Part shown: piece after piece, positions 1 through 61,818 of the stretch
Position numbering within the stretch: the first letter of the stretch is position 1
Layout of the letters: every line of letters begins with the position of its first letter
DNA from: Heterotrichella gracilis
Lineage: Eukaryota; Sar; Xanthophyceae; Tribonematales; Xanthonemataceae
Assembly: GCA_032358255.1 (NCBI GenBank)
Contig: JAULBX010009217.1
Coordinates: forward strand, 1 to 64,000
Direction: 5' to 3'
Length of the DNA stretch: 64,000 nucleotides
Translations under genes and position numbers: made by a program
Notes under the pieces: model-generated
Database searches by the model: none
Told to the model about the DNA's origin: nothing
Seen by the model: the letters and a program-made list of their open reading frames with translations, nothing else

Positions 1-3000
1 CTAGGACTGGGGTGAGGCATACCCAGACATGCTAACCTGGCTTCAAAGCTGGAATGCATATACTTACTTACTTACTTTTAGGGTTTACCCAGCATTTATT
101 GTGCAGGCGAGGGCGTGACCTCCGAGCCCTACCGGCTGTACAACCTGGATGTGTTTGAGTACCTGGCTGAGTCCCCCTTTGGCCTGTACGGGGCCATTCC
201 CTTCCTCACGGCGCACAAGCCAAAGCTGCACACGGGGGTGTACTGGTGAGTGTGGGTGGGTGGGTGGGATAGGCGCATGCCAGTGCACAAGCAAATGCAG
301 ATGCTCAATGCATATCCACATTCTTTAATAGAGATCTTTTAAAAGATGCGTGGGATCAATAGATGGTTCAAACAGTGCCAGGAAAGAGCTGCATGTGCAA
401 GACCGACTGCTAATCTGGCTGTATTGCTGGAATGCATGTAACTAACTAACTAAAAGACGCGTGGATACGTAATATTCATGGTGGTACGCCCCATGCCAGT
501 GATGCGCATGCTAATGTCTGGCATGCTGATGCTGCACATGCAGATACAGATCTTATGCACCGCATGCACGTGACCCACACGCCCATGCACCGTCTTCACA
601 TGTGTGGCGCATCTCCCATCCCCTATGCATCCATGCCTCAAAACCCCCTCAAAACCCTCCTCAAACCCTCCATCCCCAGGAACAATGCCGCCGAGATGTA
701 CGTGGATGTTGCTAAGAACGCCACAGGCACCTGGACGCACTGGTTTGCCGAGAGCGGCGCCCTTGACCTGTTTTTGCTGGTGGGGCCCTCGCCGCAGGCG
801 GTGCAGGAGCAGTTCAGCACCATCAGCGGCACCACCGCGCTGCCGCAGATGTTTGCCATTGGGTACCACCAGTGCCGGTGGAACTACAAGTGCGTGGCGG
901 GGATTAGGGAGTTTGGGGAGGGAGATTTCGACATCCCCACTGTGCAGCTTGTGATGTGTAGCAGTGTCTTGTGCAGTCCTCAATGCCACATCCCCGGCAT
1001 CCAATCCCCATTGTGTCATCCTGCCATCCCCAATCCCCATCTGGAAAATTTGTCAATTTCTGGTTGTGGCATCCCTGCAGTCCTCAATTGAACTCCCACC
1101 CTGCTGTGCAATCCCCAGCTATCTCCCCAAGGATAATATCCCCAGCTTCTAACCTCCCACACTGCTGCCTCCCAGGGACGAAGCCGACGTGGCCCAGGTG
1201 GACGCAAATTTCGACAAATACGACATCCCCTATGACGTCATCTGGCTGGACATCGAGCACACAGACGGCAAGAAGTACATGACCTGGGATGCGAACTATT
1301 TCCCAAACCCCGCAAAAATGCAGGAGGATGTGGCGTCCCGGGGACGCAAAACGGTGTGCATCGTGGATCCCCACGTGAAACGCGACGAGGGGTACCCCAT
1401 TTTCAAGGAGGCGCAAGAAAAGGGGTACTTTATCAAGACGCCGGCGGGGGCTGATTTCGATGGGTGCGTGCAGGGAGGGTCATGGGGGCGGCTTGGTTGA
1501 GTGGCAGCGGTAATGTTGTGTGAATTTGACATACAAGCAAATCATTCCTAGACTCTTCAATTCTCCTCACACACGCTTCCATTCCCAGTTAATGCCTGCG
1601 CCTCTTAACCTGCTCACGTCTCCCCCACCGCCCCACACATATATACACACATATTCCACAGGCTTTTTCTATTGTGGAAAATGGCAACTGGCTTTTCGTT
1701 TCATCTCAGGTGGTGCTGGCCCGGTTCCTCCTCCTATCTTGACATGCTGAGCCCAGAGGTTCGGTCCTGGTGGGCTGACAAGTTCCTGCCGAGTGTGTAC
1801 CCAGGCGCCACCCGCCACCTGTACATCTGGAACGACATGAACGAGCCAAGCGTGTTCAACGGGCCGGAGGTGGGTGAGGCCGGCGTGGGGGTTTCATACA
1901 GAAACCTGAGCATCCAAATTCCTCACTAAGGCTACCATGTGCACCACCTCAACCCTGAAACCTTTGACACCCCTGGTCAAACCCCCACAAATAACAGTGC
2001 AAAAGACATCTTTCACAACCCCAGAACCTCAAACCCGAATATGCAGACCTGAACTCCTGACCCTCACCTCAATCACTCAATCACCCACCCCACCTCCCGC
2101 AGGTGACCATGCAGAAGGACAACGTGCACCACCAGGGGGTGGAGCACCGCGACGTGCACAACGTTGTGGGTCTACTCTACCACATGGCCACAGCAGATGG
2201 GCTGCGCAGGAGGGGGGATGCAGTGAATGCGCCCAACGGGGACAGGCCCTTTGTACTCAGCAGGGCCTTTTTTGCGGGGTCCCAGCGGGTGGGGCCCATT
2301 TGGACGGGGGACAACGGCGCGGATTGGGCGCATTTGCGGGTGTCGGTGCCCATGGTGCTGTCGGTCAGTGTGGCGGGGCTGCCCTACGCAGGTGGGTGGG
2401 AAGGGGCGGTGCATTTGTGGGTGCATGTGGGGGGTGAGGGGTGGAGGTACAGGGGTTGTGCACGCAGTGCCATTGCATGGAGAGTATGAAAAAACTTTCC
2501 CTTTCTGTGTACTCCTTGAACCATGTGCATATGCGGGTGTCTGTGCCCATGGTGCTATTGGTCAGTGTGGCGGGGCTGCCCTACGCAGGTGGGTGGGGGA
2601 GCGGAAGCGGATGCGTGTGGGTGCCAGGAGCACAGGCGGTTGGGTTATGTGCGCAGTTTTGAAACATGGCAATCATTGTGGCATGTTGGTGCCAGCCTGT
2701 GCCTCTCTGTGTTCTTTCCTCCCACTCCATGGTCATGGCAATGTGGTGTCCGCACCTAAATCCTAAATCCCCTCCGTGCAGGCGCCGATGTGGGTGGCTT
2801 CTTCGGCAACCCCGATGAGGAGCTTATGACCCGCTGGTACCAGCTGGGAACCTACTACCCATTCTTCAGGGGCCACGGCCACCTTGAAACGAAGCGGCGC
2901 GAGCCTTGGATGTTCTCAGATCCCACCCGCATGTAAGGATTGGAATGGTTGAATAGGCGCCTGTTGTGGTGCAAAAAGTAGGGTATTAGTATTGCAGTGA

Positions 3001-4734
3001 TCTCAGTAGTTCCGGGGTATTCTGGTACGTTGGTTTTGGGGTTTCCGCAAGGGGCTATCTAATGGGCAGAGATGTTGTGGGCTACCAATGAGACCCTGTA
3101 TCCTTAAGACCAATCTCTGCTGAGGCGCATCACCATTCCCTTAAACCTTAATCGACACCTGCCCACAGGCGCATCACGGCTGCCCTGAAGGAGCGCTACG
3201 CCCTCCTGCCCTACATGTACACCCTGTTCCGCCAGGCCAACCTCACCAACCAGCCTGTGCTGCGCCCGCTGTGGTTCCACTTCCCAGACAACCAGGCCAC
3301 CTACGGGATCGACGACCAGTTCATGGTGGGGCCGGCGCTGCTGGTGCGACCGGTGCTGGAGCAAGGTGAGGGGTGGGGGGTGGGGGGGGCTTGGTGGTGC
3401 ATCATGGCAAGGGGGTTGGGGTGGGGGCCTGCCTGACGGGCTGTCACCAATTACACTCTTCAATTTCCCACCCATAAGCACCCTTCACAGGTTCCTCACA
3501 GTAAACGCACTCTTGATCGGCGCCATAGTTTTTCCAGTCCTCACCATCCATTTACCTGATGTTCAGGCGCATCGTAAGTATTCCTGCACCTTTCCCTGGG
3601 ACCTAATTGGTACGATATATACAGGGAATGATTCCCACAACATTTGCCAACAACCCGCTCTTTTTTTCCAATCCCCAGGCGTCTCCCAAGCAGCCCTGCA
3701 CCTCCCCCTGGGAGCCAAGTGGTACGACGCATACAGCGGCTACGCCATCTCGGGCCCAGGCTCCTTGAACCCCGGGGACCACGCGGATTTCACCGTAAAT
3801 GTCACCATCGACAATGTGCCCGCCTACATTCGGGGGGGCCACATTGTGCCCCGAAAGGACCGGGCCCGGCGCTCCACAGCCGCCATGCGGGACGACCCCA
3901 TTACCCTACTGGTGGTTTTGGATGAGGAGGGGCGCGCCAGTGGGCAGCTGTACCTGGATGACGGCTCCAGCCTGGCGTTCCTCAAGGGGGCGTACATCCA
4001 GCGCCAGTTTGAGTTTGCGGGGATGGGGCTGAGCAGCAGGTGGGGGGTGGGGGAAAGGAGGTGGCGGATTGGTGGGACGTGGGTGGAGGTGGAGGTGGGG
4101 TGCACATGCCAGGGAGGTTACCTGTACAAGCCTAATCACAACTCTGATCAATTTCCTGATGAATTTGACCAGTCTGATCACAATATGCTCACAGCCTGTC
4201 AACAGCCCCTATCCACTGTCATAATTCCAACCAAAACACAACCCACTAGAGCCCTAAGCAAATCCCCACGCACAAACCCGATGCATGGGCAGAAGATGTG
4301 GCCTTGAATCGCCCTAACCACACCCCTGATCCCAAAACCCTAGCCACAAACTCCACTCTGCAGGCAATGGTGCGCCGAGGGCGTGGCCCTGGAGGTGCCT
4401 TGAGCAAATCTCCTTCCTTGTTATAAATCCCTAGCCAAAACCCTAATCGCAAACCCCCCCCTGCAGGCAATGGCGCGCAGAGGGCGTGGCCCTGGAGGTG
4501 CCCGGCGCCCATGCCACCAAGGAAACCATCGACGCCATCAAGGTGGTGGGCCTGCCCGAGGGGACCTACAAGGTGTTTGGTGGCGATGGGGCGGAGATGA
4601 GCGTGACTGCTGGGCCCCTGGCGCACCTGCGTGGCCTGCCCAACACCTGCATCATTGTGCGCAAGGCGGGCCTGCCTGTGGCCAGCGACTGGAGCATCCG
4701 CTTTGTCAAGGTGGAGGCGCCGGCTGCACAGTGA
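1..4734 (+). CDS. GANAB: Glucosidase II alpha subunit (GH31), 5' end missing
   Basis: The ER enzyme that removes the two inner glucoses from N-glycans during calnexin/calreticulin quality control. Visible exons are 107-245, 680-889, 1176-1463, 1710-1869, 2103-2391, 2782-2932, 3169-3365, 3679-4039 and 4467-4734; all phases agree and give about 687 residues to the TGA at 4732. Bases 1-106 are intron, so the N-terminus, signal peptide and early beta-sandwich lie outside the window. The GH31 core is clear: YHQCRWNYK, the [15 protein letters not shown] strand, the nucleophile Asp in IWNDMNEPS (codon 1834-1836), the acid/base Asp in WTGDNGADW (codon 2310-2312), and [11 protein letters not shown]. 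The C-terminal beta domains ([20 protein letters not shown]) follow. The family normally pairs with a beta subunit carrying the ER-retrieval signal; none is seen here. Several introns hold copies of the adjoining exon edge (see findings). A lysosomal alpha-glucosidase of GH31 is less likely because the central exons follow the GANAB pattern closely. Confidence 0.95.
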
Positions 4735-8245: not shown

Positions 8246-10874
<2,629 letters not shown>

Positions 10875-11445: not shown

Positions 11446-14400
11446 ATGCACCGTCCGGCATTGAGCCTGCTGGAGAGGCTTAGTAAGCGATACAGGCGTC
11501 AGGTTTTCAGGGCTGTGACAAGGTAAATTGCCTCCCATCAGCCCTTCCTTGCTCCTGTTCCCACGATCTCCAACCCTTCTGGTTCTTATTTTGTTTTGCT
11601 GCTTGCAGTGGGGCCCCATCACGAGGCTACAGCGTTGTGATCCCAGCGGACGTGCCCCTCCCGGCTGCGTTTCGCCAAAGGCTCACCTCGTTGTGCAATG
11701 CCTCCATCTCAGCCCGTTTACCGGCCACCCTCTTGCCGCCTACGGTGAGGGCGGTGTTCGGTGGGGCCACCAAGGAGGTGAAGGTGGCCCTCACCGAGAT
11801 CCAGCAGTTCAAAAGGGCTCAGCTGGCTGCTGCCAAAGCACGGTTCAGCTCGTTGGAAATTAAGCTGGTGGCGGTGGCCAACTCCCTCTTCTGCGTGTCA
11901 GCCGGGAAGGTGAGCAACAGCTGAAACATGTCAACCAAGGTGCAACAGGAACTGGGCCAGAAGTGGTTGCCCTGATGTATGCATGGGCATGGTGCCACAT
12001 ACAATGCAGAAGCTTGGCCTGCTACACCTTCACCCACACCACTTTTGAAACCATAAACCGTTCAAAACTGCTCACCCATACCACCTGGTGACCCACTTGT
12101 GGAAGGTGGGCACAGGCCATTCAACAGCAACCACAGTTTGGTTCTGCCCCATGCATATCTCATAAAGCACCGTATCAACGCGAGTGAGGCCGCAATAAGC
12201 CCGCACTGTCCTTATATATTGACCACGTTTTAAAAACCTGGCTTCCCTCCCCCCTCCGCAGAACATCCTGCTCATCGGAGCCCCACTAGCGCTCACCCAG
12301 GTGTGGGGCACAGACACCAGCCACTGCTACTCAGTGCCAGCCACCCACCAGCGCACCACCGCAGCCCTGCACAAGCCAGCACCCTCGGTCAGTGCCAGCC
12401 TCACCAACCTCCTAGAGGAGGCACTCACCCTCCTGCGGGGAGCATACCTCTCCCTCCTCTTCCTCCCAGCGCTCCTCACAGCCCCCATCTGCCTCAACTG
12501 GGGATTCCGCCGCGACCTGTGGCTGGACCTAGTCCTATGGACCCTCGAGCAGGCCGGCCCAGCCTTCATCAAATGGGGCCAGTGGGCAGCCACCCGCCCC
12601 GACCTCTTCCCATCAGACCTGTGCGACACCCTGGCGCTGCTCCAAACCGCGGCACCTGCGCACAGCTATGACTACTCGCGGCGCACCATCGAGGCCACCC
12701 TCAACATGCCGCTGCACAAGCTGTTCACCCATTTTGACCAGCGCCCGGTGGCTTCTGGCAGCATCGCGCAGATCCACAAGGCGGTGCTGTCCCCGGGAGC
12801 CGCGCTGGGGACGCGCTACAAGCCGGGGACGGTGGTGGCGGTCAAGGTGCGGCACCCGCGCGTGGGCATCCTGATGCAGCGCGACTTTGTGCTGATGCGG
12901 CGCCTGGCGTGGCTGTGCATGCGGCTGCCGGGCCTGTCGGGGCTGCGCCTGGACGAGAGCGTGGCGCAGTTTGGCGCGCCCATGAAGGAGCAGCTGGACT
13001 TGGCGCTGGAGGGGGAGAACCTGCAGAGGTGGGTGGGAGGGGGAGACTGGATGGTGGTGAAGGGGTGAGGAGGTGTTTGCACATGCGTTGATGCGCGCTT
13101 TCTATATGCTTGGATGCTCAATCCTTATGCATCTGCAAATTTTGGGACAGGCTTTCATTTTGGCATCACGCCTGCCCAGCCGCCAATGGACCCAAACATT
13201 ATAAAACGCCCTCTAAGCGGCACTGACCCCACCTGCCCCCCTCTCAGGTTCACCAACAACTTCCGGCGGTGGCGCAACCTGTCCTTCCCCAAGCCCATCT
13301 ACCCCTTTGTCACCTCGGACGTGCTTATGGAGACCTTTGAGGAGGGGTCGCACATATCCAAGTATGTCAACTCGCCGGGGCACAAGTACAACAGGATGCT
13401 GGCAGGTGCGTGGGACTGGGCGGATTGTGGGCAGGGTTGGGTTGGAGGGTGCGCGGGGTGCACTGGGGGGGCGATTGTGTAACAAGTTTGTTACGACAGC
13501 AGCGTGACATGGGTGGAGCGGCGTAGTTTACTGTTCCTGGAAGCGAGGGTGGGGTGTGTCACTATGCGGGGACATGCGATGGGCTTGGGCGGGGGTTACA
13601 ACGTCATGAATTTGCAGGAACTGGGGTGCTGCACCAAAGGGCAAAAACAGCTTTGTCCTCCCGCCCACCCTCCCTCCTGAACCCTCCCCTCTCCCCCTCC
13701 TGCAGACATCGGCATGAAGTGCTACCTCAAGATGCTGCTCAAGGACAACCTCATCCACGCCGACATGCACCCGGGCAACATCCTGGTGCGGGTGCAGGAG
13801 CCAGCCACCGTGTGGCAGCGCCTGGTGCAGCGCCTGTCCTCCGGCCCCTCGCCCCACCTGGTGCTGCTGGATGTGGGCATGATTGCGGAGCTGACCAAGG
13901 AGGACCAGACCAACCTGGTGGGCTTCTTTAAGGTGAGGATTGATAGTTAGGGGTTTCCCCTGGCTGTGTGGCGTTAGGGAGCCAAAGCACTGTAGGTGGG
14001 GTAGCGCAAGATCTGTTTTGAGTAGTGTTGATGAGCTAGTGGGGTTTTTCAAGGTGAGGGGGTTTTGCAAGGGTTTGCAGCTAGGGTTATTAACCTCTGC
14101 GAGGGTTTTTTGGGAAAGGTGGTGGGTTCCTTATATTGCAACCGGTTACTAACGGCATGCTGTTGCATGCACCCTGGTGTGCCACATGCCTTGTCCTGGC
14201 CTGAAGCACTGCTGCTGCCTGCTTAGGCCATGGTGACTGAACTCTGCTGGTTGCACATGCAGGCCATCACCCAGAAGGACGGGGCTGCGCTGGCTGAGAG
14301 CATCCTGGGGTTCACGGAGCAGCAGCACTGCCTGGTGAGTGGGGTGGACAGGGGTGGGAAGGGGGGGAGTGATGCAGGGAGGGGTTGGATGGCGCTTTCA

Positions 14401-25750: not shown

Positions 25751-25777
25751 GTAGTAGTAGTAGTAGTAGTAATAGTA
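25751..25777. repeat. (TAG)n trinucleotide microsatellite
   Basis: Nine imperfect TAG/TAA units in a row, in the spacer downstream of the polytopic membrane protein gene. Confidence 0.9.
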
Positions 25778-30300: not shown

Positions 30301-31876
30301 TATACCCAATCATGATGCACAATTTTCTTTTCTATTTTTGGTGCTTTGAAAATGGGTGACATGTTGCCATGTGGCGTGTTCCTATTGGCTCACATTCTGC
30401 CATGTGGCGCATTCCATTGGCTGACATGCTGCCATGTGGGCGTTCCCTCACAGGCCTGACATCTCTGGACATCAGCCCGGATGGCAGCGTGGCTGTGACT
30501 GGTGCAGAGGACGGCAGTGTGCGGTTGACCAACATCAGCAACGGGAGGGTGCTGGGGTCGCTGACAGGTGGGGTTAGGTTTAGGGTTTTGGGCTGACAAC
30601 ATCAGCAACGGGAGGGTACTGGGGTTGCTGACAAGTGGGGTTGGGGTTCATGTTTGGGTTTTGGGGATGACCAACACGAGCAAGAGGGTGAAGGTCTTGT
30701 ACTGATCTGTTAAACATAAATTTCATTGCATTTCCCCTGTCGCTTGGTGCGCGTCTGAAGCTCAGTACTATACGAGGCACATGCGTTTCGGCACCCTAGG
30801 GAGGCAAAAACAAACCCTCGCCAAAATCCTTGTGCTGGTGCAAGGACCCCCACCTAAACCCCCTGAACCCTTGTGCAGACCACGATGAGTCTGTTGAGGC
30901 CGCTGCCTTTGCCCGCTCGCTGCCCATAGCAGTGACTGGGGGCCTGGATGGCAAGGTGAACACATGGGATACTGCAACGCTGTCGCTGCGCGCCACGTGT
31001 CAACACCCAGAGGCAAGTGGAAACCCTGAAATCATGGCCGTACAGTACATGCATAACAGGACATGTTTAAGTTAACCATGCAATCATCTTCTTAATTAGG
31101 TTTTGAGGCACATTGTATAGAGGTGACAGAAGGGATGGGTCCGCCTATAGCAACACGGGCTCACTTGCACAGCAGGACACTGTCAACATGAGATGGCATA
31201 ATAGTGCCAAAACGGCGCTGCTTGGCGCAGCATATGCAAAGCTGACTGCTTGTCTTGCTGCACTGCTGAATGCATGTGACCTATCAATTAAACCCTCGAT
31301 AGACCATTGCTGTGTGTTGAACACCATGTGTGTGTGTGGCGTGCAGGGCGTCGTGCGGCTAGCGATGCACCCTGTGTCCCCGCTGGTGTTCTCTGGGTGC
31401 ATGGACGGGGCGGTGAGGGTGTGGGACCTGCGGTCAGGTGCGCAAAAAAGACCCTACCTGAAAACCCTAGGTAGCAGTGGGCACCCACTCACTGCCATGC
31501 AGCCATGTCTTGTAAAGTTTCATTACCTGGCAGTGTGGTGACAAAACATGGATAACTGGAATCAACCGATGTGTATGCACACAAATTATGTGCACCCACA
31601 CCACGTGCACGTGGGCAGGCGCATTGAAGCCCGCTGTGGGGTGATAACAAATCAAGCATCAAAGCATCAAAGCTGATCAAAGCACAATTATACCGTAGCC
31701 AACAAACGTATTTGTGAGCACAAGTAAAACAGGCGCGTGCGTGTTTGTGCGCAGGTGCCTGCGAGCGCACCTTCCTCGGCCACTCTGCTGCCATCCAGGA
31801 CATTGCACTGAGCCCAGACGGCGCCATGGTGTTGGCGGGGGCGGATGACTGCACAGCCAAGGTGTTCCAGCTTTAA
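27313..31876 (+). CDS. AAMP: WD40 protein AAMP / Sqt1-like
   Basis: AAMP and its yeast relative Sqt1 are WD40 propellers; Sqt1 is the dedicated chaperone of ribosomal protein uL16 (Rpl10). Eleven exons: 27313-27418, 27779-27910, 28243-28328, 28735-28800, 29240-29297, 29591-29760, 29987-30149, 30454-30567, 30879-31012, 31347-31437 and 31755-31876, all in phase, 413 aa. The N-terminal 80 residues are very acidic (YDDDDEGDGPGDDDS), as in Sqt1/AAMP. Then come WD repeats: FEAHTDAVFAVAWSP, LELAGHTDSVSSMRFN, GDGIEWVTWHPRGNVV (the AAMP-specific stretch), LFSGHTGAVRCGMFTPDG, LTSLDISPDGSVAVTGAEDG, DHDESVEAAAF, GVVRLAMHP, and FLGHSAAIQDIALSPDG to the stop. The intron after 31012 starts with GC rather than GT. 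The start codon is tentative because the frame stays open upstream through the CTACCC repeat. Confidence 0.93.
28372..28537. repeat. Minisatellite in AAMP intron 3, derived from exon 3
   Basis: Five to six degenerate copies of a roughly 30-bp unit (core atggtggccacatggggaggg) run through the intron. The unit matches the coding sequence of exon 3 just upstream (atggtggccacagggggagg, in 28283-28310), so the array appears to be amplified exon sequence. Confidence 0.75.
30358..30452. repeat. Three tandem 31-33 bp units ending at the AAMP exon 8 acceptor
   Basis: Units share gctgacatgctgccatgtgg (with variants) and start near 30358, 30391 and 30421. The last runs directly into the splice acceptor of exon 8. 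Confidence 0.75.
31013..31346 (+). other. AAMP: GC-AG intron in AAMP
   Basis: The donor reads GAG|gcaagt and the acceptor gtgcag|GGC. Joining them gives HPE|GVVRLAMHP in the WD40 frame. No GT within reach restores the frame, so a GC-AG intron is the simplest reading; GCAAGT is the usual consensus for this minority class. Confidence 0.8.
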
Positions 31877-34370: not shown

Positions 34371-34857
34371 GCTAGCCATCGGGGTACCGTACTCGGCAGC
34401 AGTTTATTGCTTCAGGAGGGGCAGACAGGACAGACAGAATCAGTGTACTCCCTTTCTTCATTTCTTTTGTAGTGCATGGGGGAGCGTGGTCAGGTTCCTT
34501 ATTGGGAGGTTTCAAGCGGTGGACCATGTACAAATTTGCTGCACTGTGAGGAGGACGGGCTAGGCGGAAGTGGACATCGATTACAGCTTCAATTCAGCAC
34601 CTCGTGGCAATTGCAACTTTAAAGTTGATTTTGTTGGTAATTCTGGTGAATCAGATCCCAGCCCATCTGTCACAGTGTTGAATCCGTTGCAAAGTGCCGA
34701 CACTCTGGCTTATATTATAATGTTTTTTGCTTCTCAACAGTCTGATTCAACGAAGGGTGGGATGCTGTCCCGAGGGCATGGTGCCTGGGATTTGATTTTT
34801 ACTGTACACGCCAATGTGATGTTGTGATTTTACAAAACTTTACGGGCATTTATTGGC
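34371..34857. other. 3' flank of the F-box-like gene
   Basis: About 490 bp with the presumed 3' UTR of the F-box-like gene and sequence leading to the MITE. No gene is supported. Confidence 0.4.
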
Positions 34858-35076
34858 TAATAGCCGTAGCCGCAGTGGTAATTTTGCGCCCAAAATTAAC
34901 TTTTCATCGACTCCGCTAATTGCGCTAATTCGCCGCTCGACGTTCGAATTAGCAGGATTAGCAAAATTAAGCCTATCTGAAGCCAAATCGATGGATAGGG
35001 GACTGTTTACGCCTATGTTCGCGCTAATTTTACGTTAACGTACGACGCTAATACCCCACTACGGCTACGGCTATTA
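34858..35076. mobile_element. MITE with 19-bp terminal inverted repeats and TA target duplication
   Basis: Left end atagccgtagccgcagtgg (from 34860) and right end ccactacggctacggctat (to 35074) are reverse complements with one mismatch. Both are flanked by TA (34858-34859 and 35075-35076). The 215-bp body is AT-rich with many TTAATT/AATTAGC motifs and has no coding capacity. Size, inverted repeats and TA duplication fit a Tc1/mariner-type non-autonomous element. The TA is short enough that chance cannot be fully excluded, but the inverted repeats are clear. Confidence 0.85.
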
Positions 35077-36005
35077 TTTGCCACACAAGCTTAAGCGCAG
35101 CCAATACAACAGTTGATAGCATGCAAGGCTCCGAATCCAGAGTTGTAACAATTACAGAGATGAATTTGGCGGCATTCGGTTGACTCACCGCCTGCCGGCG
35201 GCCCATCATCAATGTGTCATGCACCCGGTGAAATGAATGTTTTAACAGATCACGTGCTCCACAGGGGCCTCTATACCCAAGGCTCGGTCCTTCATGCATG
35301 CCACATCATGTACTGCAGGGCATACAGCTGGCACTGCTTGGCATACCGTATTATTGCAAGCTGAGCTGGCACTGCTTGCAATGCGACCCATGCCATTGGG
35401 GCTTGTGACACGATCAGCTCCGGAAAGCATGCTGCCATGCCACAGCCCGCCACCTAGTCTAGCCCCAGCACTGCACTGCAGACAGAGCGTCGCCTCCCGG
35501 CAACAACTTGAAACCCTTGCCACCAAAACTGCGTCCCCCACCAATCCACCCCCTCAATATGCTGCACCCTCACCACACCACCTGCTCGCCACAATGCGGC
35601 GGCGAGTCGTGGTCCAGCTGGCAACGCCCTGCTGTGCCGCCCCTCTCTGAACGCCAGCCGATGAGCTGGGGCATGCTCCCGCGCCATGTGCACTGCCACC
35701 ACCATCTTTAAAAAAGCAGGCGCTAGCCCCACCTGCACCGCCGCTGGAAAAAAAACTAGCCACGATTTTGCTCTCCCCCGCTCAACCCCGCTGCCACCGC
35801 GCATCAAAATGGCGGCGGCGTGCGGTCCAGCGCCCTGCGCCGGCCCTCCCGGAACGCCAGCCGCTGCACATGCTCGCGCACCTTGTGCCACCACCTCATG
35901 GGAACAGTTGGGGTCCGAGCACCGCGCGCTGCTTTCTGGCACACCGCCGCCTGAAAAAACTGGCCTTAGGCTTGGCTAGCCCTCCCCCGCTGCGCCGCGC
36001 TTGCA
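35077..36005. other. 3' flank of ATAD3 with two extra copies of its last-exon end
   Basis: Sequence 35590-35706 and 35801-35905 are degraded copies of the end of the ATAD3 last exon plus flank (true copy about 36004-36110). They form a tandem array with a period near 200 bp that extends past the stop codon. The rest of the stretch shows nothing recognisable. Confidence 0.7.
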
Positions 36006-39000
36006 TCAGAATGGCGGCGGTGTGTGGTCCAGCGCCCCGTGCCGCCCCTCCCGGAACGCCAGCCGCTGCGCATGCTCCCGAACCTTGTGCGCCACCACCG
36101 ACCTGAACACCTCGGGCGTCAGCACCGCTTTTTGGGCCCCGTACACCGCCGCCTGCACACTGGCCATCAGCTTGGCCAGCTCGCGCCCGCTGAAGCCCTC
36201 GGTGTCGCGCGCCGCCTGGCGCAGCACCTCGCCGTCCACGCCCCGCACCTCGATGCGGTCGGCGCCCAGCTTGCGGCCCCTGCGGAATTAAATACGAGTG
36301 ATTATCTAATCGATTCAATTCCCTCCAGTTGGCAATAGCGGCATTTCTTTTGTTTTGTTCATGAAGTTACATGGTGCCAACTTGCGGCCCTTGCGGAGCA
36401 GTAAATATGAAAGATTGCTTGATTCACTTTTTATTATGCAACTGTTTCCAGGATTATTTGACAGTCACATTCAGGATGCCAATCCGGGCTCACAAGGCTG
36501 ATATATTTAAATACTAAATTGGTGCCCAGCTTGCCCCCTGCGAATGACTAGATCAGCATCACAAAACGAAACTAATATGGCAAAATCACATTCCACCACC
36601 ACCCCACCCACCAGCGCACCCACCTGAACAGCGCCTGCAGCCTCTCCCTGATGCCCCCCGTGCTGCCCGACCCCGCGCCCCCTGTCTGCGTGCCCGCCTG
36701 CACAATGTAGGTGTCCAGGTACAGCTGCAGGATGGACAGGCGCTCATCCTCGCCTGGCAGAGGGAACTCCAGCGCCTCGTCCATGCGGTCAAGCACGGCG
36801 TCGTCAAGGTCGCCTGTGGGACAGGAAGGGCGTCAGTAAAATAGCACTGCAGGAAGTATTGCATTGCAGGCCTTGCACGGGGTTTACACTGCATACCACA
36901 GTACAAAATTCTACAACATAAGCAAAAATCAGCGACTCGTCCATGCAGTCAAGCACGGCGTCATCAAGATCAACTAGGAGGTGGGTGGCAGGAATCTCAA
37001 TGCCCATCCTTTCATTTGGTACGTTGCATTGTATACCCCCATTTTGCCGCGTTTCACTCTTTGGAATCAATATTGTGAATAGATGCAATCTGATGCTGAT
37101 GGATGCCTTGATTGTTTTCAGCAGGCTAGCTGCTCGCCTGGCTCTTTGCATAGAGTGAAGTACATTTCATAAACTCACCTGGCCTGGTTTGTGGCCAGCA
37201 CCACCGCAAAATCCTTTGACCTGGTCCCTACTAAAATCTTGTCCATTACTAATGATTACAATGGGGAGTTATCCACTCACTCACCTGGTCTGCTTATTGC
37301 CAGCGCCGCGAAGTCCTTGGACCTGTCACTACTATGCATACCCATTCCACTCATTACAATGGAAAAGTATCCACTGGCTCACCTGGCCTGTTTGTTGCCA
37401 ACACCACTGCAAAGTCCTTTGACTGGTCCCCAGTCCTGAACAGCAGCGCGTTGAGCGCACCCCGCAGGCCCTCGCTCATGCCATCGCCGCGCTTGCCCAG
37501 GAAGGCATCCGCCTCGTCAATGAATAGCAGCAGGCCCTGGGGGGGTGGGGGGTTAATTTGCGTTGGTGCGTGTGAGTGTGGTGGGTGTGAGCTGGGAGGG
37601 ACACAAACTGTTGTCAACCTTGACCCTAAACCCTAAACCCTTGAACCATGGGGGGCTTGCTCATGCGCTCGCAATGCCCTTGCCAAGGGAGGTGACTGTC
37701 TTGTAAATGAACAGGGAGCAGGTCGGAGGGGGTCGAGGGGTGGGGGGGTGGGGGTGGGTGGGTAGGAAGGGACTTTCAACCTTGTCAATGAACATGAGCA
37801 GGTCCTGGGAATAGGGGTACGGGGAGGGAATAATTCATGCATTGGCACACTCTGCTGTTACATGCATGCAACACCCCTCCTTGCTGCTCTGAACCCTCAA
37901 CTGTAATTGGAACATGGCAACCCCCAAACTCCACCTTGTTGCTCCGCTCCACCCACTCCAGCATACCATGCAGCTGCTCTAAACCCTAGACCCTACACCC
38001 TAACCCACCTTGTTGCTCCGCTCCGCCCAGTCAAACATCTCGTGCAGCTGCGTGACCGCCTTGCCCCCAAGTGGCGCCACATCCCCACCGCTCATGATGG
38101 CGTAGTCCAACCCACTGGTGCGCGCGAGGCGCTTGGCGGCCATGGTCTTGCCGGTCCCGGGGGGGCCTGGGAAGGGGGGAAGGGGGTATAGGGTTTAAAA
38201 ATAGGGTTAGGTTCTGGTGCGCGCAAGGCGCTTTTCGGTGCCGGGAGGCCATGGGGGAGGGGTCTTAGTCACATGCGGGAGGGGTCTTTGACAGCGAGGA
38301 TGCATGCAAGGCCTTGAGTTTGCCAGTGCCAACGGGGCCTGGGTAGGATTCAGGTTAAGATTTTCAGGGGCAAGTCAAAGTTGGGTTTGTATGCCAGGGG
38401 GGCATCCCTGATTATTCAACACAGCATGTGTACGCGGGGCGCCAAGCAGCAGGTGGTTATCGCCACCAGCCCCAGCATGCAACTGTGGTTGATAAGAAAG
38501 TTGATGGTGAATTGAGGATTTTGCGTTTAGACTACAAAATTGCATGTTCACTTTCTTCTGGCCCCCTCCAGCCCGCCCACCCACCGTAGAACAGCATGTG
38601 CCTGAAGGGTGCCCCGTGCGCCTTGGTGTTCGCCGTTACCGCAGCCAGCGCACGCACATGATCATGCAACGCCCCCGGGAGCACCACATCCCGGAAGTCC
38701 TTCTTCACATCCTCAATGGCCTTGGTAGCGAAGGAGCGGCTGCCGGGGAGCAGGCTGCGGCGGGAAGTCTCGCGCACCTGAGGCAGGAGGAGAAGGGGAG
38801 TATTGGTGGTGGTGGTGCAGATTTCATGGGGATGGCAGGGATTGAAGTTAAGCAACAATGAGACGTGATCGCAGTGCGCGGCACATGAAGTAAAATGAGG
38901 TGGGAATCCTCGCTGTTACTTTACAAACCCACTTTCACGCCCACCACCCCCCTGGCGGCGGAGGGGGCTGTCATTGTGGTCCTCACCCGTGCTAATCTGC

Positions 39001-41908
39001 CAGTCGTCTAATTCATCTCATGCATTGCTCACCAGCCTGGGCGTGCCAAACCATCTGTCCAGCGCCTTGCCAGCTGTGCGCGCCCCCTCCCTTGACGAGT
39101 ACACCCCCAGCGCAAGCAGCGTCAACCCCCCTATCCCAGCAGCCAGGCGCTCCTTGTCCGCCAGCAGCGACATCACCCCCCGCCCCAGGTGGTCAAACGT
39201 GGTGTTGATGCCCTCAATCAGCTTCTTGCGCTGCTCCTCGAGCTTGAGCTGGAGCTCCCTGTAGGGGTGGGTGATAGTGGAGGTGTGGGTGTGGGTGTGA
39301 ACGTAGTTGCGACAGGGTGTGTGTAAAATATGCCACCACTATGCCTGTTGGGAGGGGGGCGGATGCCTGTGCCTGTGTATGATGCATGTAGTGGGTGGTG
39401 GGAGGGGTGCGGGTGGTGGCGCATGGCACAACATGCAATGGTACATGGCATGCTGCTGGCTAGCTCTTTGGGTCAGGTTGTTGCAGTTAAATTAAATAAT
39501 AAACACAGCCAACTGTGCCGGCTTCATACAGCTCCAATAAGGTTAGTCATCATCCCCAGAGAGCCAGGTGAAACCCCAATGTGTGTGCAGGTGATTGCAT
39601 TGCATTCTTGTCACATGCTCCCCCTGCCAGCCAAACTCCAATGTTGACATGAGGATGTTGCACTACCAAGTCATAACTTCTGGCAGCAAGAGGCAGGTGC
39701 TTGGTCAAGCGTGCGTTGGCCCTGCCACCATGTCATGCAAACCCTGGGGTATGTGCATTTGCCACATGGCATGCTCACACAGCACCCCCCAGCAACCACA
39801 ACACTGGTATTCCACTCGTAGAATGGATGTAGAAAACTGTTTCCATCCTGTTCTCCCCGCCTCACCTCCTGTAGATGTCCTCATTTGCTCGCCTCTCGCG
39901 CGTCTTGCCCTCAGCCTCAGCCAGAGCACGTTCTCGCTGCACGTCCTTGTCCAACTCCGCCTGTGGGAGTCAGGGTGTGGGGTCAGGGTTCAGAATACAG
40001 GGTTTAATACTTGCTCTCGCTGCACAGTCCTTGTCCAGGTCAGCCTGTTGGAGAGTGGAAGAGAGTTGGGGTGTACGGCATGAGACACAGAGCGCAAAGC
40101 CTGCTCCCGCTGCAAGTTCTTGTCCAGCACCGCCTGCGAGGGTAAAAGCATATGGTATTTATGCTATTAGCGTTTATAACATGAGACCAAATGGTCCATG
40201 TAGGGCTGGCCCTTGGCAGCGGATTGTGACGAAGGAATGCATGGCGCGCTAGGCGATTGGTGTTGCGTGGCATTTGCGTGTTGCCCTTCTCTCCGCCTGC
40301 ATATGCTCCCCCACCCAAATCGCAACCCCTCACTACAAACCGATAAGGTGTAGGATTCAGGCTTTACATTGCTTCTTCCCCACTTGTATTGTGTACTGTG
40401 CACTTCCCCAGCCCACCCACCTTGTACTTCTCCGTCGCCCTGCGCTCCGCCTGGATCTACGCCTCCACCTAAACTGCACCCCATTCCTACATGCTCAAGG
40501 GATTTGGGTGATCTCCTCCTCCACCCAAATTGCACCCATTCCTACATGCTCAGGGTTTTGGGTTTTGGGTTCAGGGTTTAAAGTGCATTTCCCCCGTCCA
40601 CCCACCTTGTACTTCTCGGTCGCCCTCCTCTCCGCCTGGATCTGCTCCTCCACCCGCCGCCGCTCCACCTCCTGGCGCCGGTGGCTCTCCTCCTGCAGCG
40701 CCACCAGCTCGGCGTTGCGTTGCCGCTGCTTGTCGTGCTCCGTGTCCATGCGCTGCCGCGCCAGCTCGTCGTCGTAGCGCGCCAGCTCAGCCTTGATGTG
40801 CGCATTTTGCTGCTGGGCCTTTTGTTGCTCCTGCCAGTGGATCTTCTCGCGCTCCTGCGGGAGGGGGTGGGTGTGTGGGTGGGTGGGGGGTGTGAAGGCA
40901 CAGGTGGGAGTAGCATGCAACATGTGCGCGTGCCCTGCTCGTCTCAGTTGCACACTTGTAGCATCCACCTTTGGGTGACGACAGGCACACCCCATGTCCT
41001 TGACGGGTGTACGCGTGTTGTAGCATGCCAGGCCAGAAGGGCTGTGCAGTGTGGCGTACGACGGACTTGGGGTCACATCAGATGCAGCTGGAGATGCATG
41101 GCCTGGATGCAGCATGGTCCTGGTATAACTGGACGTCAACCTCAACAGCAACGTCTATGCAGCGATGCTGTGGTGGTGGTGGGCTGTTCAACAGGCTTAC
41201 AATCATCGCCTGCTCCGCAGCCACCCGCATCTCCGCCTCCTTGACCTTTGCCTCGGCCTGCTTGGTAACCTCCTGCTGACGGGAAAGCTCCACAACCTGC
41301 GGGCGGGGTGGGTGGCGGTGTGGGGGGTGGGGGTGGTGGGTGACCACACACCACAGCCACAGCCTGGAGCACCCATGGTGACAATGGTAGAGGGCTGTGG
41401 CTGATGGTAGCATCTCTTGTCGATTATGGTATGTGCATATACACGCCGCCCTGCTGTGACTGTGCACGCGAAGCCTGGTGGGAACTGGCAGCTCCCATCT
41501 GGTGCATGTGCATGCAAGGAGCATCGCAGGCATGCGGAGAGGAACCCATGTGAAGCGCCTGAGGCCTGATCGACGTGCTGCCGCATATGCCCAAAACCAC
41601 CACTATGCTAAACACCGGATGTACTCCGATGCCGGTTGCTGCGTGCCACATAGAACGCCGCCGTCACTGTATGCATGCATGCATCCATCGGTGCACGGAT
41701 GCACCACCCATCCACGCACCTTCTTCGCATATGGCGATGCGTTTATTTCTCGTAGCGCCTTGGCACCCCTCTCCAGTGCCTCGGGATCGAACACCGGCCC
41801 TCTCGTGTCCGGTTCGCACGCTGCAACCAGCGCGCTGCAAGACGCCACCGCGCCCCCCGTCGCCATCATGAGGCCACCCCCTCGCCGCACCCACTCTCGG
41901 AACGCCAT
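36006..41908 (-). CDS. ATAD3: ATAD3 mitochondrial AAA ATPase
   Basis: ATAD3 is an inner-membrane AAA+ ATPase tied to nucleoid organisation, membrane contact and cholesterol/lipid handling. Ten exons on the minus strand: 41720-41908, 41201-41296, 40606-40854, 39866-39960, 39033-39258, 38585-38777, 38009-38166, 37383-37536, 36624-36813 and 36006-36279; phases agree, 607 aa. Residues 35-60 match the N-terminal signature [16 protein letters not shown]. Residues 64-225 are a long charged coiled coil ([43 protein letters not shown]). A hydrophobic segment lies near residues 250-266 ([17 protein letters not shown]). Then VRETSR, the Walker A motif GPPGTGKT (350-357), [14 protein letters not shown], Walker [12 protein letters not shown] (404-413), sensor ATNRPG, and [21 protein letters not shown]. 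Its introns are the richest in exon-edge echoes. Divergent with TTC1 (883 bp apart). Confidence 0.95.
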
Positions 41909-51300: not shown

Positions 51301-54300
51301 ATGTCGGATTTCAGGGGCAACGAGAAGTACCAGGTGGTGCGGGAGCTGGGCATGGGCGCCTTCGGCCTGGTGGTGCTGTGCCAGGACAAGCAAACAGGTG
51401 GGTGCTAGGCGTGGGGTGGGGGAATGGGGGGCCTTGGGGGCAATTGAGATGATGGCGTTGTGCCAGGCAGGCAAACGAGAGGGTGCTGGGTGGGGTGTGT
51501 GGGGGGTGGGGTGGGGCATGGGGGCAAACGCGTTGAGTACTTGGACAGGCACACAGGTGGGATGCTGGGGTGCTGGGGCGGCATTGGGGCAGTTGCGACG
51601 GTGGTTTTGTGTGAGGACAGGCAGGTGGCGTGAGGGATGACAGACCAGACCATTCTCCATGGTGGCTGAGTGGTGCTGTGCGAGAAGGTGACAACAGCAG
51701 GGTGTTGAGGGGGGTGAGCGGTTTGGAATGGGACGGATGTCACAGGACATGGGCTCTCTCATGGATGCAGCTCTTCCCAATTGAAAGGAATACGCACAGG
51801 TACCATGTCACTAACAGGTATCATTTTTGCTGATCACCTAATAGTTCACCTCGTACAACCCCACCAACCCCACCCCGTCCCCACCATCACCCCCAACCCC
51901 CAGGCGAGGAGGTGGCGGTCAAGCTGATGCCCCGCGGCAAGGGCGTGACTAAGTACGTGGAGCGCGAGATCCTCATCCACCAGAAGCTGTCGCACCCGCA
52001 CGTTGTTGAGTTCCGGGAGGTGTTTGTGACCGACAAGTACCTGGGCATTGTCATGGAGTACTGCGCGGGGGGGGACCTGTTCTCCTACGTGGTGGAGATG
52101 CGGGGGCTGCAGGAGAAGCCTGCGCGGTGGTTCTTCCAGCAGTTCATCCTGGTGAGTTTAGGGTTTGGGGTGGGGGTGGCGGGGAGGGTGGGTGCGGAGG
52201 GGTTTGGGGGCCAGGTGGCCTGGCGCAGCACTGTGAGGGTGTCGCTTGCGGCAAGTTACGCGTAGCACTGCTACTGGGTTGGCATGGAGCAGTAGCGCAA
52301 ATGCATGGCTACATGGCCCACATGGCTACATGGCCTGCTTGGCTACATGCCTGGCTGCTATGGACTTGCCGGGAGATTATTGGCCTGACATGGTACAGGT
52401 GGAGTGCCATGGAGTGCCCAGACTCACCCCTTTGGACCATCTTCAAACCCAAACCCCTATTTACCTCAAAAACCCATGGCAGCCACCCCAAACGCTAGAC
52501 CTTAGACCCTACAATCGTAGACTCCAACCCCGCAGCAGGGCCTTGACTGCTGCCAGCGCATGGGCATCGTCTCCCCAAACCCTGAACTCTAGACCCTAAA
52601 CCCTAATCGGTTGCAGGGCCTTGATTACTGCCATCGCATGGGCATCGTCTCCCGCGATGTGAAGATGGAGAACACGCTGCTTGACGGGGGCAACCCGCCC
52701 ATGCTCAAGATCTGCGACTTTGGGTATGCAAAGAGCGAGAAGGAGCACTCCAAGCCAAAGACAAAGGTGCGCCGCCGCCAGGCACTCCGCACCATGTGGG
52801 GCCAATTGCTCAATGAATTAAAATCACTTTCTATTGCACCTACATCTCTTTATGAGTCATATAATGTTGTCACAAGTTTTAGTGAATTTAAACGCTTTAT
52901 ATTGCATTGAAATATACTACATTTCAACATGGATTATAACAGGATGTCACTGGGCCCAATGCGTGGTTGCAATGGCAATGCCCCTGCTTTCCTGTACCGC
53001 CATAGAGTACCGGTAATCTGACCCCAGTAGGAAATCCAGAAAAGTAACCCTTAAACCTAAAGAGTCGCCCTTGCGCAGGCTGCGCCACCCGCCCATCACT
53101 GCATGGGCACCACTCCCCTGACCCCAAATCCCCGAATCCTGTTCCAGGTTGGCACCCCCGGGTACACCGCTCCTGAGATTCTGAAGAACAAGACTAACTA
53201 TGACGGCAAGAAGGCAGACATATGGTCGGCAGGTGTCATGCTGTTCAGGTGGGGGGGAGGGGAGGGGAGGGGCGCTGGATTGGTCGCAATATGCACATGT
53301 CAGTAGGAATGCTCTTCTTTTCTGTGTGGGTGGGGACGCTGGAGCGTTTTCTGTATGGGTGGTGGGATGGGGAGGGTGTTTTGTACGGGTGAGGAATGGG
53401 GTGCAGAGGTTGCGCTGTACGGGTGGGGCTGGTTGGCGGGGTTTATGCTGTTCGTGAGGGGGGGGATGAGAATATGGAGCGCTGCTGTGCCTGGGTGGGA
53501 ACAGGGCGTGGCAGGCACACCTGGTGGCGCCGTGCACCGACAGTGCAACCCACCACCTGCACCATGCCACCCCTCGTGGCTCCACCCACTGACCCTCTCA
53601 CCCCTCCCCTGCAGCATGCTGTATGCGCGCTACCCCTTTGAGCGGCCCACCGACGACCGCCTGAGCGAGTTTGAGAAGATGCAGATTGTGCTCAAGCGCA
53701 TCCTCAACGTGGATTTCACAATCCCCGGGGATGCGTCCCCAGAGCTGCGCGACCTGCTGCAGAAAATCATTGTGGCTGACCCCGAGAAGCGTGCCACCAT
53801 CCATGACATCTACAACCACCCCTGGTACTGCGTTGACATCCCCGAGGGGATCGAGGCGTTTAATGACGACATCTGCGCAACGGTGCGATGGCATACAAGT
53901 AGTCATAATTGCTATGATCATGAGTTTTGGCTTGCACCTGGGCTTGTGATATTATAATGTATTATATATATTTATATTGATACTGGTGCTGTTGGTGCTG
54001 TGACAGAAAACTTCACTCCCATGAGGCATGCTTTCTCTCAGCACCAAGCACACTACCATTGTAGCTCAAAACATGTCTAACATGCTTTATAAATAAGTAG
54101 TGTCACGTAAAATATAACTGTTATAAAAGGACTCCAAAAGTCGTGGATTCCTGCTGTATCTGCCATTCAAATTTATCCACCCCGTCTCCTTTCTCCCGTG
54201 CAGCCTGTTCGCCGCGCGCAATCTCCCGAGGCCATCAGCGCAGTTATCCAGCAGGCGCAGTCATCCACGGGGGCGATGGAGGCATTCAACCCAAATGACG

Positions 54301-57967: not shown

Positions 57968-58015
57968 CTATTTAGGGTTCCTCGCCCTTCGAGCTGCCTT
58001 GCACGCCGCCTTGTG

Positions 58016-61000
58016 CTACGGCCATTGCTGGTTCTGGCAGTCGGTGCTGCAGTAACGCGCCTTGCCGCATGGGCACATGCGCAAGGATACGCCACCCCCC
58101 GCCGCAGCACCACACCCGCTACACATGCGCTTTGACCGCTGCTTTTTATGTATACATATACTGTTTTAAAAAGTCAGCAAAGAGAAAGAGAGAGGAGAGG
58201 AGCAGCAGAAACCACCACACCACACTGCCCCTCACTGGCCTCCTGTGGTGTGCCTGCCAAAATAAAATACAATAATGAATACCCCATATATACAGAAATA
58301 AACATATAAGCGCCCACACCCGAAACCCTAAACCAACTCAACAGGTGTTAGTCCTTGAAAAGGCACGGCAAAGGTTGTAGCAAAGGCAACATAAATAGTT
58401 TGTTGCACCGTCCTCCTCCCCACTCATTACCCTACCATTGGGTGGTCCTGCCAATCCACAAGGTGGAGCCTCCGGCGGCAACCACAGCGGCGCATCGCTG
58501 CAGTAGGCATACAGGTGCATGCCATCCTCTTGCACCGCGTCAGGTGCGGCATACCAGGGCACAAACGTGCTCCATCCAAAGCGGAGAATCTGATGGAGGT
58601 GCGAAGCAGTGCTGTGCCACCGCCACCAGCACCTTGCCTTGGATGCTGAAGACCCTTCCAGCAGGGACTGGTTTCAGTTCTTCTGCTCGCCAATCACCCC
58701 AGCGCACCTCCAGCACCACGTGGTCAAGGGGCAATTGGTCTTCTCTGTGCTGCAGGCACTGCAGGCAGGTGCGCACTGAGTCTTTTGCAACGCTCAATAC
58801 AGTGTTGGCGTACATGGATTGGACACTTTGCATACTAGTTGCACGTAATCCACCGCCCATCCATCAGCCACAGAATTAACCCTCACACAGGCTGGCAACC
58901 CAATTTACGCCATATAATAATATTTCCCCTTCATGACCACCCATGCAGCTCATACATTTCTGTAGCTTTTATCCATCCAGGACCCTTCATTTGGACCCTA
59001 CCTCTGCAATGTGGCTCCATTTGGCGATCCTGCTGGCAGTCAGTGCAGCAATAAGCGTAAACGGCACAGTTGGGGCAGCCACCAAGCGCATACAATGCAC
59101 CACGGCACTGCAATTGGCGCCACCTGGCAGCGTTACCTCCATGGGGTGGGTGGTGGGGCCGCAGGTGCCCTGCTGCGCTGACAACTCCTCACGGCATACG
59201 CGCTGCATCACACGGCACATGCGCCCGGCCTGTAGGGACAGCAAGGGTTGATGAGAGATTTTCATTGCAATGAGCATCAGGTAGATTGCTTGGTAGAATG
59301 TTACGTGGACTGGGAGGTGAATCGTTACATATTGCTGTCGATAGTGCCGCATAGCGCCTGCACGTTTTCCCACTCGCGTGCATGGGCCTATGGAACGGGG
59401 GTGACCATTGCACACCATGCAATATTGCTTAGAAGCTCAATACAGCCCTTCACACTATGATCACAACTAGAATGGAGGGTAAAGGTCGAGAGTACCCTGT
59501 GTAAGGCTTTGCTTTTGAACCCACCTTCTTTTCCAAGTCGCTGGTTACGCACCACGTGGCGGATGCGGAGTCCCAACCCACCTCGCCAGGTGGCAGCTTC
59601 ACATCCACCCGCACCGCCAGCTGCCAGGCGAAGGGCGCCTCCCCAGGGGGGAGCAAGGGGGAGGAACCTGCACACCACCAGAAACGTCAAATGGAATTTC
59701 AATATGTTTCAAGGACTGCGGTTCAGCCAGAACTTGCGAGCAACCGCCCTCAGGGATCTTTATAGGATTTTAGGGTTTTAGGGTTTTAGGCCTTTCAGGG
59801 ATCCAGGGACTCAAACTGTCTCAGAAGGAATATAATGGGTTTCCAAGATTTTTCCTTCGCGCTATGAATGCGACACCCAAGATTGCTGTGTGTTGCAGAA
59901 TTGCCCAGGGTACTAAGATAAGAGTAGTCAGGACTTTATTATCTTATCACCCTTGGTATTTCGCAGAGCCTCAGATCCCCTGCATTCATGGGGGTTGCTG
60001 GATTTGTGGTCCTCCGCACACTCACCACTCCTCTGGATGCACCACCTCCACCCTGTCTGCCCCGATACCCTAAAAGTAAATCCTCAAACCATTTTCTGGT
60101 TCACACGCACCTGCGTCCCCCCTTGTCATCTGAATGACCCTGTTGAGTGCTGCCCATGCACGCCACAGGCTGGGGCGCATCTCAAGCTCTGGCTGGTGAA
60201 GCAGGTACCTGGGGGAAGCACGTGGCATACATCATGTGTGATTATCGTGTGATGATATTTGATTATCGTGTGTTTAGTGAAGCAAGTACCCAAGGGGAGC
60301 ATATGAGGTGTACATGTGATCATGTGTGATGATATGTGATCATCGTGTGATGATATTTGGTGCAGCAGGTGCCTGGGAGGATCAGCAGGTGGGGTGGTGA
60401 GTGGGTGTGGCCCAGGGATGGGACTTGTCACTAAGATCATATGAGAATTGCATTGATAATGCGGTTCTTCAATTTGGTGAATACCACCCCCCTCCACTGG
60501 CCCCCACTTAAACCCACCTGAGCGCCCCCCCCATCACCATAGCGTCATTGTACACCCCCTGCGCCGCCTCCACATCCCCCTCCACCACCATGTCCCACAG
60601 GCACTCCTCCACCAGCTGCCCCATGGTGGCCGGGGGTGGGGGCGACAGGTAGGGGCCAGAGGCGCAGGGGGGGAACAGGCCGGGGGTGGCAGAGGAGGGC
60701 ATGTCAGAGCCCGCCAGGGGGTGAACAAAGGTATTGGCTTTACCAGGGTACATGTAGAAAGCAGGGACTGCCACGTCCAAGGATTTGCTGCACAGGCACA
60801 AAAATGGATGATTAATGCAAGGCAGGAAATGCCCCGCCGTACTTTCAGCGGGGTACATGTACAAGGCATGGAATGTAACATTGAAGAAATGGCTGCACAG
60901 CAAAAAGACTGATGTAAAAAAACGTGGGTGCTGTTTCATCAGGGTACCAAATAGCGAGGGGCCCACCTACATTTGATGGGACAGGGCGGAAGCAACTGGG

Positions 61001-61343
61001 AAACAATGGTGCTAGGTATCAGCCAACCAGAGGTGCAATAGGCTACAGGACAAATACCCTAGATTAAACCCCAAACCCTAGAGCAGACCCTAGCCCACCT
61101 CGGGCTGCTTAGAACGGCCCCGAGCACGTTTGTGTAGCCCGCACGCTGCATGAGGCGGGCCAGAGGCGTGGCAGGGCATGTGGAGGAATGCGCTGACGCG
61201 CCCACGCGGGAGGTGCGCACAATCAGCGCGGCGTGGAGGGTGCGAGTGAAAGTGCAGCAGGTGTGGATGGGGGGGCCGCGGGGTTGTCCTGCAAATCCCT
61301 TGGTGAGCATGGCGCAGGTGGGTGCCAGGACCTTGGTCTGCAT
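58016..61343 (-). CDS. MYND zinc-finger protein, family unknown, model incomplete
   Basis: Minus-strand exons that join in phase: 61099-61343, 60518-60787, 60111-60208, 59525-59667 and about 59002-59229. A 3' set also joins in phase: 58633-58834, 58431-58589, 58016-58138. The link between the two sets does not keep frame and is unresolved. Recognisable parts: SPPPPATMGQLVEECLWDMV, then RYLLHQPELEMRPSLWRAWA, APFAWQLAVRVDVKLPPGE, and at the end FGWSTFVPWYAAPDAVQEDG followed by a MYND finger (CSGCG...CPCGKARYCSTDCQNQQWP). The finger is cut by TAG at 58016-58018, before the expected final His and Cys; reading on gives HKAAC and a second TAG at 57968. A second, different MYND-like coding segment lies at 59002-59107 in another frame. 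MYND fingers bind proline-rich partners; no further function is offered. The start (61343) is a guess. Confidence 0.45.
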
Positions 61344-61818
61344 TTATGGATGAGGGCTTAGGTATAGGGTTAAGTTTGTGAGCATGGCGCAGGTTGGTGC
61401 CAGGACCCTGGTATGGATGAGCAAGGGGAGGGTGGTGGTGTCTTAGAAAATACTTACCCTAAATAGTTGACCTCCCATGAATTGCCAAACAAGCTCGCAG
61501 CCCAGTGTTCACTAATTTCTGTACCCCACGGTAGGCATATTCCAGTGACTACAGGTCTAAGGCACTCTCACAGCGAGGCTGACACTTAATATTGCGCCAA
61601 TCACTTGACTAACATGAATTTTCTGGATAATAAAGGCTCTCCTATGGGCGTACAAGATATGCTCTGACCACTTGACAAACGCTCTTCCCAAACCACAGAT
61701 GCAAGGCATTATACAGCAATCCATTACTAATGGCATTAGCATACTGCAAGAGAATATTCAGAAATGAGTCACGCCTCATGCCTGGTCGCCAAGTGGCGCC
61801 TCCACCACCGTTTCCTGC
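61344..61818. other. Spacer, no gene seen
   Basis: Lies between the MYND gene 5' end and the chitinase stop. Sequence 61375-61420 repeats the putative first-exon region of the MYND gene (gtgagcatggcgcagg, also at 61301-61319). Otherwise nothing is recognised. Confidence 0.4.

Follow-up and report, generated by a model that had tools for sequence, protein, structure and literature searches.

Exon-edge echoes in introns of the xanthophyte Heterotrichella gracilis probably arise from local direct duplications filtered by selection and decay

Internal gene duplication was reportedly described as ubiquitous by Gao and Lynch in 2009, who are said to have found it in 8-17% of the genes in six genomes. 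Here we describe a dense case of it in Heterotrichella gracilis, based on positions 1 to 64,000 of contig JAULBX010009217.1 (assembly GCA_032358255.1; this whole stretch of 64,000 nucleotides is referred to as the window) and on further pieces of the same assembly: introns contain real copies of the edges of the exons that adjoin them, which we call echoes. As in the duplications that Gao and Lynch reportedly described, exonic or intronic segments within genes are duplicated and survive by selection; the differences are the seemingly high share of introns affected, about one fifth of those sampled, and the frequent lack of homology in the spacer between an exon edge and its echo.

Tandem genomic duplication is one proposed mechanism of intron gain, and the model outlined in PMC3443670 duplicates an exonic AGGT segment. 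As in that outline, local duplication provides extra splice sites in H. gracilis, but here existing introns grow and no new intron was found. In the potato RdRp gene, as summarised in PMC4974935, a tandem unit across an intron-exon junction created an intron, and the same gene carries an 83 bp intronic duplication; a tandem unit across an intron-exon edge is common to both cases, whereas the potato case concerns a single gene and an intron that was created there. Introners, as presented in outline in PMC9860276, likewise involve genome-wide intron change, green algae included; however, they share sequence between genes, whereas the echoes copy their own exon. In the titles and opening parts of abstracts of the papers listed in literature searches, exon-edge copies in algal introns were not found as a topic.

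The source assembly comprises 68.5 Mb in 903 contigs, and the GC content of the window is about 55%. Twenty-nine further 10-kb pieces were taken from it; the main sample amounts to 294 kb, window included, and the later pieces L027-L030 (40 kb) constitute a hold-out. One piece that lies in the window (L001) and two pieces of about 35% GC (L002 and L016) were excluded from the counts. Exons are predictions of a custom gene finder that was trained solely on this sequence and whose last training round had 276 exons scoring >12. The 170 introns that passed a confidence filter were used for all tests. When ten predicted exons were checked against Pfam, eight gave matches above the cut-off (GH31, Iso_dh, ABC1, WD40, AAA, ATAD3_N, Pkinase and PWI); of the other two, one gave TPR matches at about the cut-off and the other no match.

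A preliminary description of the window had claimed that introns hold copies of neighbouring exon edges, and had proposed a comparison with shuffled and non-boundary controls. We ran this comparison by aligning the last 60 bases of each exon (less 3) with the downstream intron and the first 60 with the upstream intron, at a score of at least 14. Echoes were present at 41 of the 340 edges (donor edges, 17/170; acceptor edges, 24/170) and in 35 of the 170 introns, which bears out the claim: shuffled introns gave 0 and 0, and mid-exon stretches 0/71 and 0/81 (0/152). Furthermore, exon 3' ends had 0/170 matches in unrelated introns, and the copies are direct, with no inverted copy of an exon edge at the 170+170 edges of the main sample. 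In the hold-out, 4 of 15 introns contained echoes, shuffles gave 0, and there was one inverted match. With one exception, a search with 229 whole exons located copies of the donor side in the adjacent downstream intron and copies of the acceptor side in the adjacent upstream intron. The alignments reach the edge itself in 34 of the 41 echoes. As had also been described, several edges carry multiple copies; in the ATAD3 gene, eight edges have an echo and three of these have at least two. The spread is uneven, with echoes in 0/13 introns in L007, 0/15 in L009, 5/7 in L021 and 10/37 in the window. The earlier wording, according to which introns are "filled" with such copies in nearly every gene, was therefore an overstatement of a patchy phenomenon that concerns about one intron in five.

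Local direct repeats in general are abundant as well. An ungapped scan of the window (lag 12-600, score at least 14) gave 114 direct-repeat segments, simple-sequence arrays included, versus 2, 2 and 1 in three dinucleotide shuffles within 500-bp blocks, and the first 20 pieces (200 kb, both low-GC pieces included) contained 108 non-overlapping pairs versus 0 after shuffling. When lags up to 1,500 bp were considered, 167 pairs were obtained, and 158 of them had a lag below 290 bp. Repeats involving the intron flanks are weaker: 8 of 154 intron starts and 6 of 154 intron ends have a match elsewhere in the same intron, at lower scores, and shuffled sequences gave 0. Strong lag peaks in the main sample at 98-113 bp (31 versus 12.2 expected) and 180-209 bp (27 versus 10.1), in bins picked after inspection of the data, were not repeated in the hold-out (3/20 and 2/6) and are unconfirmed. 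One hold-out piece, L029 (G000:C476:100001-110000), has 22 repeat pairs in 10 kb and no confident intron; it includes a tandem stretch of 173 bp with a lag of 110 that is about 92% alike.

Echo and exon differ at 10.9% of first, 11.3% of second and 19.4% of third codon positions (40 echoes, here and below omitting one from a repetitive exon, L006 8486), a pattern that fits one neutral copy beside one constrained exon. Of 59 indels in 2,247 aligned columns, 47 are not multiples of 3. Splice sites scoring at least 5 are retained in 11 of 17 donor echoes (neutral expectation 8.7) and in 8 of 23 acceptor echoes (10.5). The echoes, splice sites included, decay as if neutral, in agreement with the earlier suggestion that the extra splice sites are left to decay. 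It could be argued that selection maintains them for a function, as decoy splice sites or as cassette exons, given that the 11 retained donors score like real ones; however, near-neutral retention, free variation at codon positions 1 and 2 and the prevalence of frame-breaking indels make this quite improbable.

We consider it probable that edge-blind local direct duplications, filtered by selection and decay, explain the echoes. Short DNA segments, with lags of mostly 50-250 bp, would be duplicated locally and in direct orientation, irrespective of gene structure. A duplication lying wholly within an exon would persist only when the reading frame is preserved. A duplication across an edge would be harmless while the outer edge is the spliced one, and such a pair would stay recognisable because selection fixes one copy, the other copy being free in the intron. 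In the case of a duplication wholly within an intron, both copies would drift and fade earlier. As a result, introns would grow by roughly one lag and come to contain scattered, decaying exon edges. The mutational step that we infer may be replication slippage, fill-in of staggered breaks or local template switching.

Intron lengths and reading frames are informative here. The median intron length is 418 bp with an echo versus 288 bp without, a difference of 130 bp (Mann-Whitney p=1.4e-7), and the hold-out shows the same direction without reaching significance (p=0.21); this upholds the view that local duplication goes together with intron enlargement. Pairs inside one exon have a lag divisible by 3 in 9/9 cases, some of the nine being repetitive protein stretches. 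In contrast, the lags of the 47 pairs between an exon and its edge intron split 14:17:16 by frame, without preference.

The echoes in the window are listed below, with the exon edge that they copy and the lag; they come from the repeat scan, and the genes are named with the Pfam match where there was one.

2330..2400, plus strand: 3' end and donor of a glucosidase II exon (exon 2103-2391; Pfam GH31)
2527..2597, plus strand: donor echo of glucosidase II 2330-2400 in the downstream intron, lag 197, donor intact
3564..3624, plus strand: acceptor echo of the glucosidase II exon start 3676-3736, lag 112
4332..4399, plus strand: acceptor echo of the glucosidase II exon start 4435-4502, lag 103
9255..9299, minus strand: donor echo of IMDH exon 9405-9628, lag 145 (Pfam Iso_dh)
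9323..9358, minus strand: second donor echo of IMDH exon 9405-9628, lag 109
9793..9819, minus strand: donor echo of IMDH exon 9866-10076, lag 61
10129..10170, minus strand: acceptor echo of IMDH exon 9866-10076, lag 76
14036..14059, plus strand: weak candidate donor echo of the ABC1K exon end 13915-13938, lag 121, 24 bp, score 14, equal to the threshold (Pfam ABC1 in an upstream exon)
30597..30648, plus strand: donor echo of the WD40 (AAMP-like) exon 30454-30567, lag 67, a near-contiguous tandem unit
35801..35888, minus strand: copy of the ATAD3 C-terminal coding end (36003-36090), past the stop codon, lag 202
36377..36397, minus strand: acceptor echo of ATAD3 exon 36084-36279, lag 111
36930..36971, minus strand: acceptor echo of ATAD3 exon 36624-36813, lag 160
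37187..37220, minus strand: far donor echo of ATAD3 exon 37383-37536, lag 203
37255..37302, minus strand: near donor echo of ATAD3 exon 37383-37536, lag 98, intron flank similar too
37780..37809, minus strand: acceptor echo of ATAD3 exon 37383-37536, lag 268
37931..37977, minus strand: donor echo of ATAD3 exon 38009-38166, lag 74
38214..38233, minus strand: acceptor-side echo of ATAD3 exon 38009-38166, lag 99
40105..40136, minus strand: acceptor echo of ATAD3 exon 39866-39960, lag 173, with a nearer partial copy at 40027-40053, lag 84
40398..40469, minus strand: donor echo of ATAD3 exon 40606-40854, lag 185, with more partial copies at 40280-40337 and 40510-40537
52535..52575, plus strand: acceptor echo of the SnRK2-like kinase exon start 52613-52653, lag 78 (Pfam Pkinase in the preceding exon)
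61300..61343, strand not assigned: repeated nearby at 61375-61418 (lag 75), no gene assigned

The genes named in the preliminary description are thus recovered for glucosidase II, IMDH, the AAMP-like WD40 gene, ATAD3 and the SnRK2-like kinase, with only a weak candidate in ABC1K. At 61 kb, the repeat is present, but the identity of the gene as a MYND gene was not confirmed: a Pfam scan of 60520-60786 gave no match at E<=0.01. The copies said to lie beyond the ATAD3 stop codon are there, and a third copy of the coding end is found at 35634-35666. We take the ATAD3 frame to continue past the predicted donor at 36084 to a stop near 36006, judging from the translation and from the C-termini of ATAD3 proteins. 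At exon 37383-37536, the intron flank is common to the exon and the near echo, and not to the far one. An ATAD3 intron also contains a 56 bp sequence (36445-36500) that recurs at 83-88% in at least six other places, two of which are close to the start of a contig.

Are exon edges special, as had been proposed? Firstly, since the ATAD3 coding end is duplicated beyond a stop codon, where no splice site is expected, an edge need not be special. Secondly, we simulated an edge-blind process in which contiguous duplications are randomly placed on the gene models and then decay; the ratio of detected intron-only to edge pairs was 0.55 at 12% divergence and 0.13 at 20%. We observed 13 intron-intron pairs versus 47 edge pairs, several of the 13 being matches between two echoes and one having a lag of 1,440. 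Because the simulated intron-only share is similar, an edge-directed process is unnecessary, and, with in-exon duplications existing in frame only, the proposed special role of exon edges is not upheld. The apparent centring on edges appears to be mostly a survivor effect.

Several observations weigh against this explanation, at least in its simplest form. Sequence near exons has four times as many repeat pairs per kb as sequence far away (0.62 versus 0.16), which lower detectability of doubly drifting copies may explain (a 1.3- to 5-fold effect, depending on age, in simulation counts), and two segments from exon interiors also matched introns in the search with 229 exons. Young pairs are scarce, with 5 of 139 at 95% identity or more, so a process of constant rate does not fit. 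The most serious difficulty concerns the spacers. Had a contiguous tandem unit been duplicated, the sequence that separates an exon edge from its echo would be expected to resemble the sequence lying past the echo, and simulated spacers at the measured echo divergence were detectable in 109 of 114 cases. Depending on the gap cost, spacer homology was found in 7-8 of 38 echoes at p<=0.01 (4-5 of 120 mismatched controls) and in 8-13 of 38 at p<=0.05 (13-17 of 120), and in none of the six echoes of 90-96% identity at the latter threshold. The alignable blocks are at least 45 bp apart in 24 of 40 echoes; of fourteen simulated settings, ten gave a share of 7-33% and four a share of 43-48%. Simulated values come close to those observed for spacers and gaps only when the duplications are older (16-25%), whether or not large indels are included, and those ages make the echoes too diverged, at 15-22% versus the 11% observed at codon positions 1 and 2. 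The claim that whole junction units were duplicated in tandem appears to hold for only a part of the echoes; in 16 of 40, the blocks are less than 45 bp apart. For the remaining echoes, a dispersed local copy, repeated duplication with loss of the middle copies or faster intron turnover may apply. We also considered, and dropped, the idea that the spacers are mobile elements between long target duplications; when 20 of them were compared with the sample, all matches were short or telomere-like, and several proved to be additional echoes.

The spacers mostly lacking detectable homology despite young echoes would be expected if copying were linked to splice edges, that is, if an edge with a few intron bases were re-copied into the intron at a distance, or if old echoes were refreshed by gene conversion from the exon. 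The intron-side similarity, which ends within 14 bp in 19 of 40 echoes, and the contrast between alignments that reach the edge and empty mid-exon controls point the same way. On the other hand, the in-frame exon duplications and the duplicated ATAD3 coding end are events without splice edges, the blocks lie close together in 16 echoes, and the few pairs above 95% identity argue against ongoing conversion. Mismatches are clustered in 36 echoes (p=0.0025), but this statistic is reproduced when plain duplications are simulated with a mixture of ages, so the argument from it for gene conversion was dropped. On balance, copying linked to splice edges seems unlikely to us. We are more doubtful still about its specific form, in which edge fragments with the splice site and a few intron bases would be re-copied repeatedly and directly, about 70-240 bp into the adjoining intron, continually seeding decoy splice sites.

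An assembly artefact, through collapsed or mis-joined reads, might be suspected in a draft of this many contigs with one bacterial-looking contig among them, and collapse could account for the few near-identical pairs. However, the copies are 10-20% different, their substitutions are structured by codon, and no pair occurs in the 20 kb of the low-GC pieces L002 and L016 from this assembly, although the ordinary pieces L018 and L030 have none either; we regard an artefact as highly improbable. Mobile elements of the Introner type, or the gain of introns by tandem duplication, are equally improbable in our view. Introners are known mainly from fast-evolving lineages such as green algae, as PMC9860276 states in outline. 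However, genome searches with pieces of 0.4-16 kb returned, among the matches listed, dispersed elements, gene-family members and exon-like stretches, and those with pieces of the window, L008, L020 and L021 returned, again among the matches listed, no near-identical introns at many unrelated sites. The creation of introns, which had been raised as a possible outcome, left no sign in the 170 introns: exon end versus intron end matched at best 13/25 and intron start versus next exon start at best 14/25, without a control. No usable allelic or paralogous intron for a presence/absence comparison was among the matches listed.

Other features of the assembly were noted in passing. L002 (G000:C1:20001-30000, in the 894 kb contig C1) has 36% GC, and its long frames lack introns and include those for L-aspartate oxidase and a type IX secretion plug protein; contig C1 is probably a Bacteroidota contaminant or symbiont. 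L016 (G000:C100:20001-30000) has 35% GC and an RNase H-like frame. The window contains a MITE-like element of about 220 bp with inverted-repeat-like ends (34856-35076; at least 15 further genome matches at 72-96% identity) and two members of an LRR-like multigene family (33165-34370 and 55375-56583; over a dozen matches listed, mostly at 67-71% DNA identity). SINE-like dispersed elements of 110-170 bp with TAA or TAAA repeat tails lie at L021 707-879 and L008 1219-1329, with at least 35-40 matches each. Telomere-like CCCTAAACCC motifs number 32 in the introns of the sample (57 kb) and 55 in other sequence (174 kb), and there are 0 in its exons (63 kb). A search of a phage collection with window positions 37000-39000 gave no match.

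The missing spacer homology is the part most worth following. The echoes of H. gracilis offer an example of a survivor effect that can give a process blind to exon edges the appearance of being directed at them. If their density holds genome-wide, this genome would be a natural experiment in intron lengthening, with thousands of duplications in which one copy is fixed by selection, and would contain many decoy splice sites whose use RNA could reveal.

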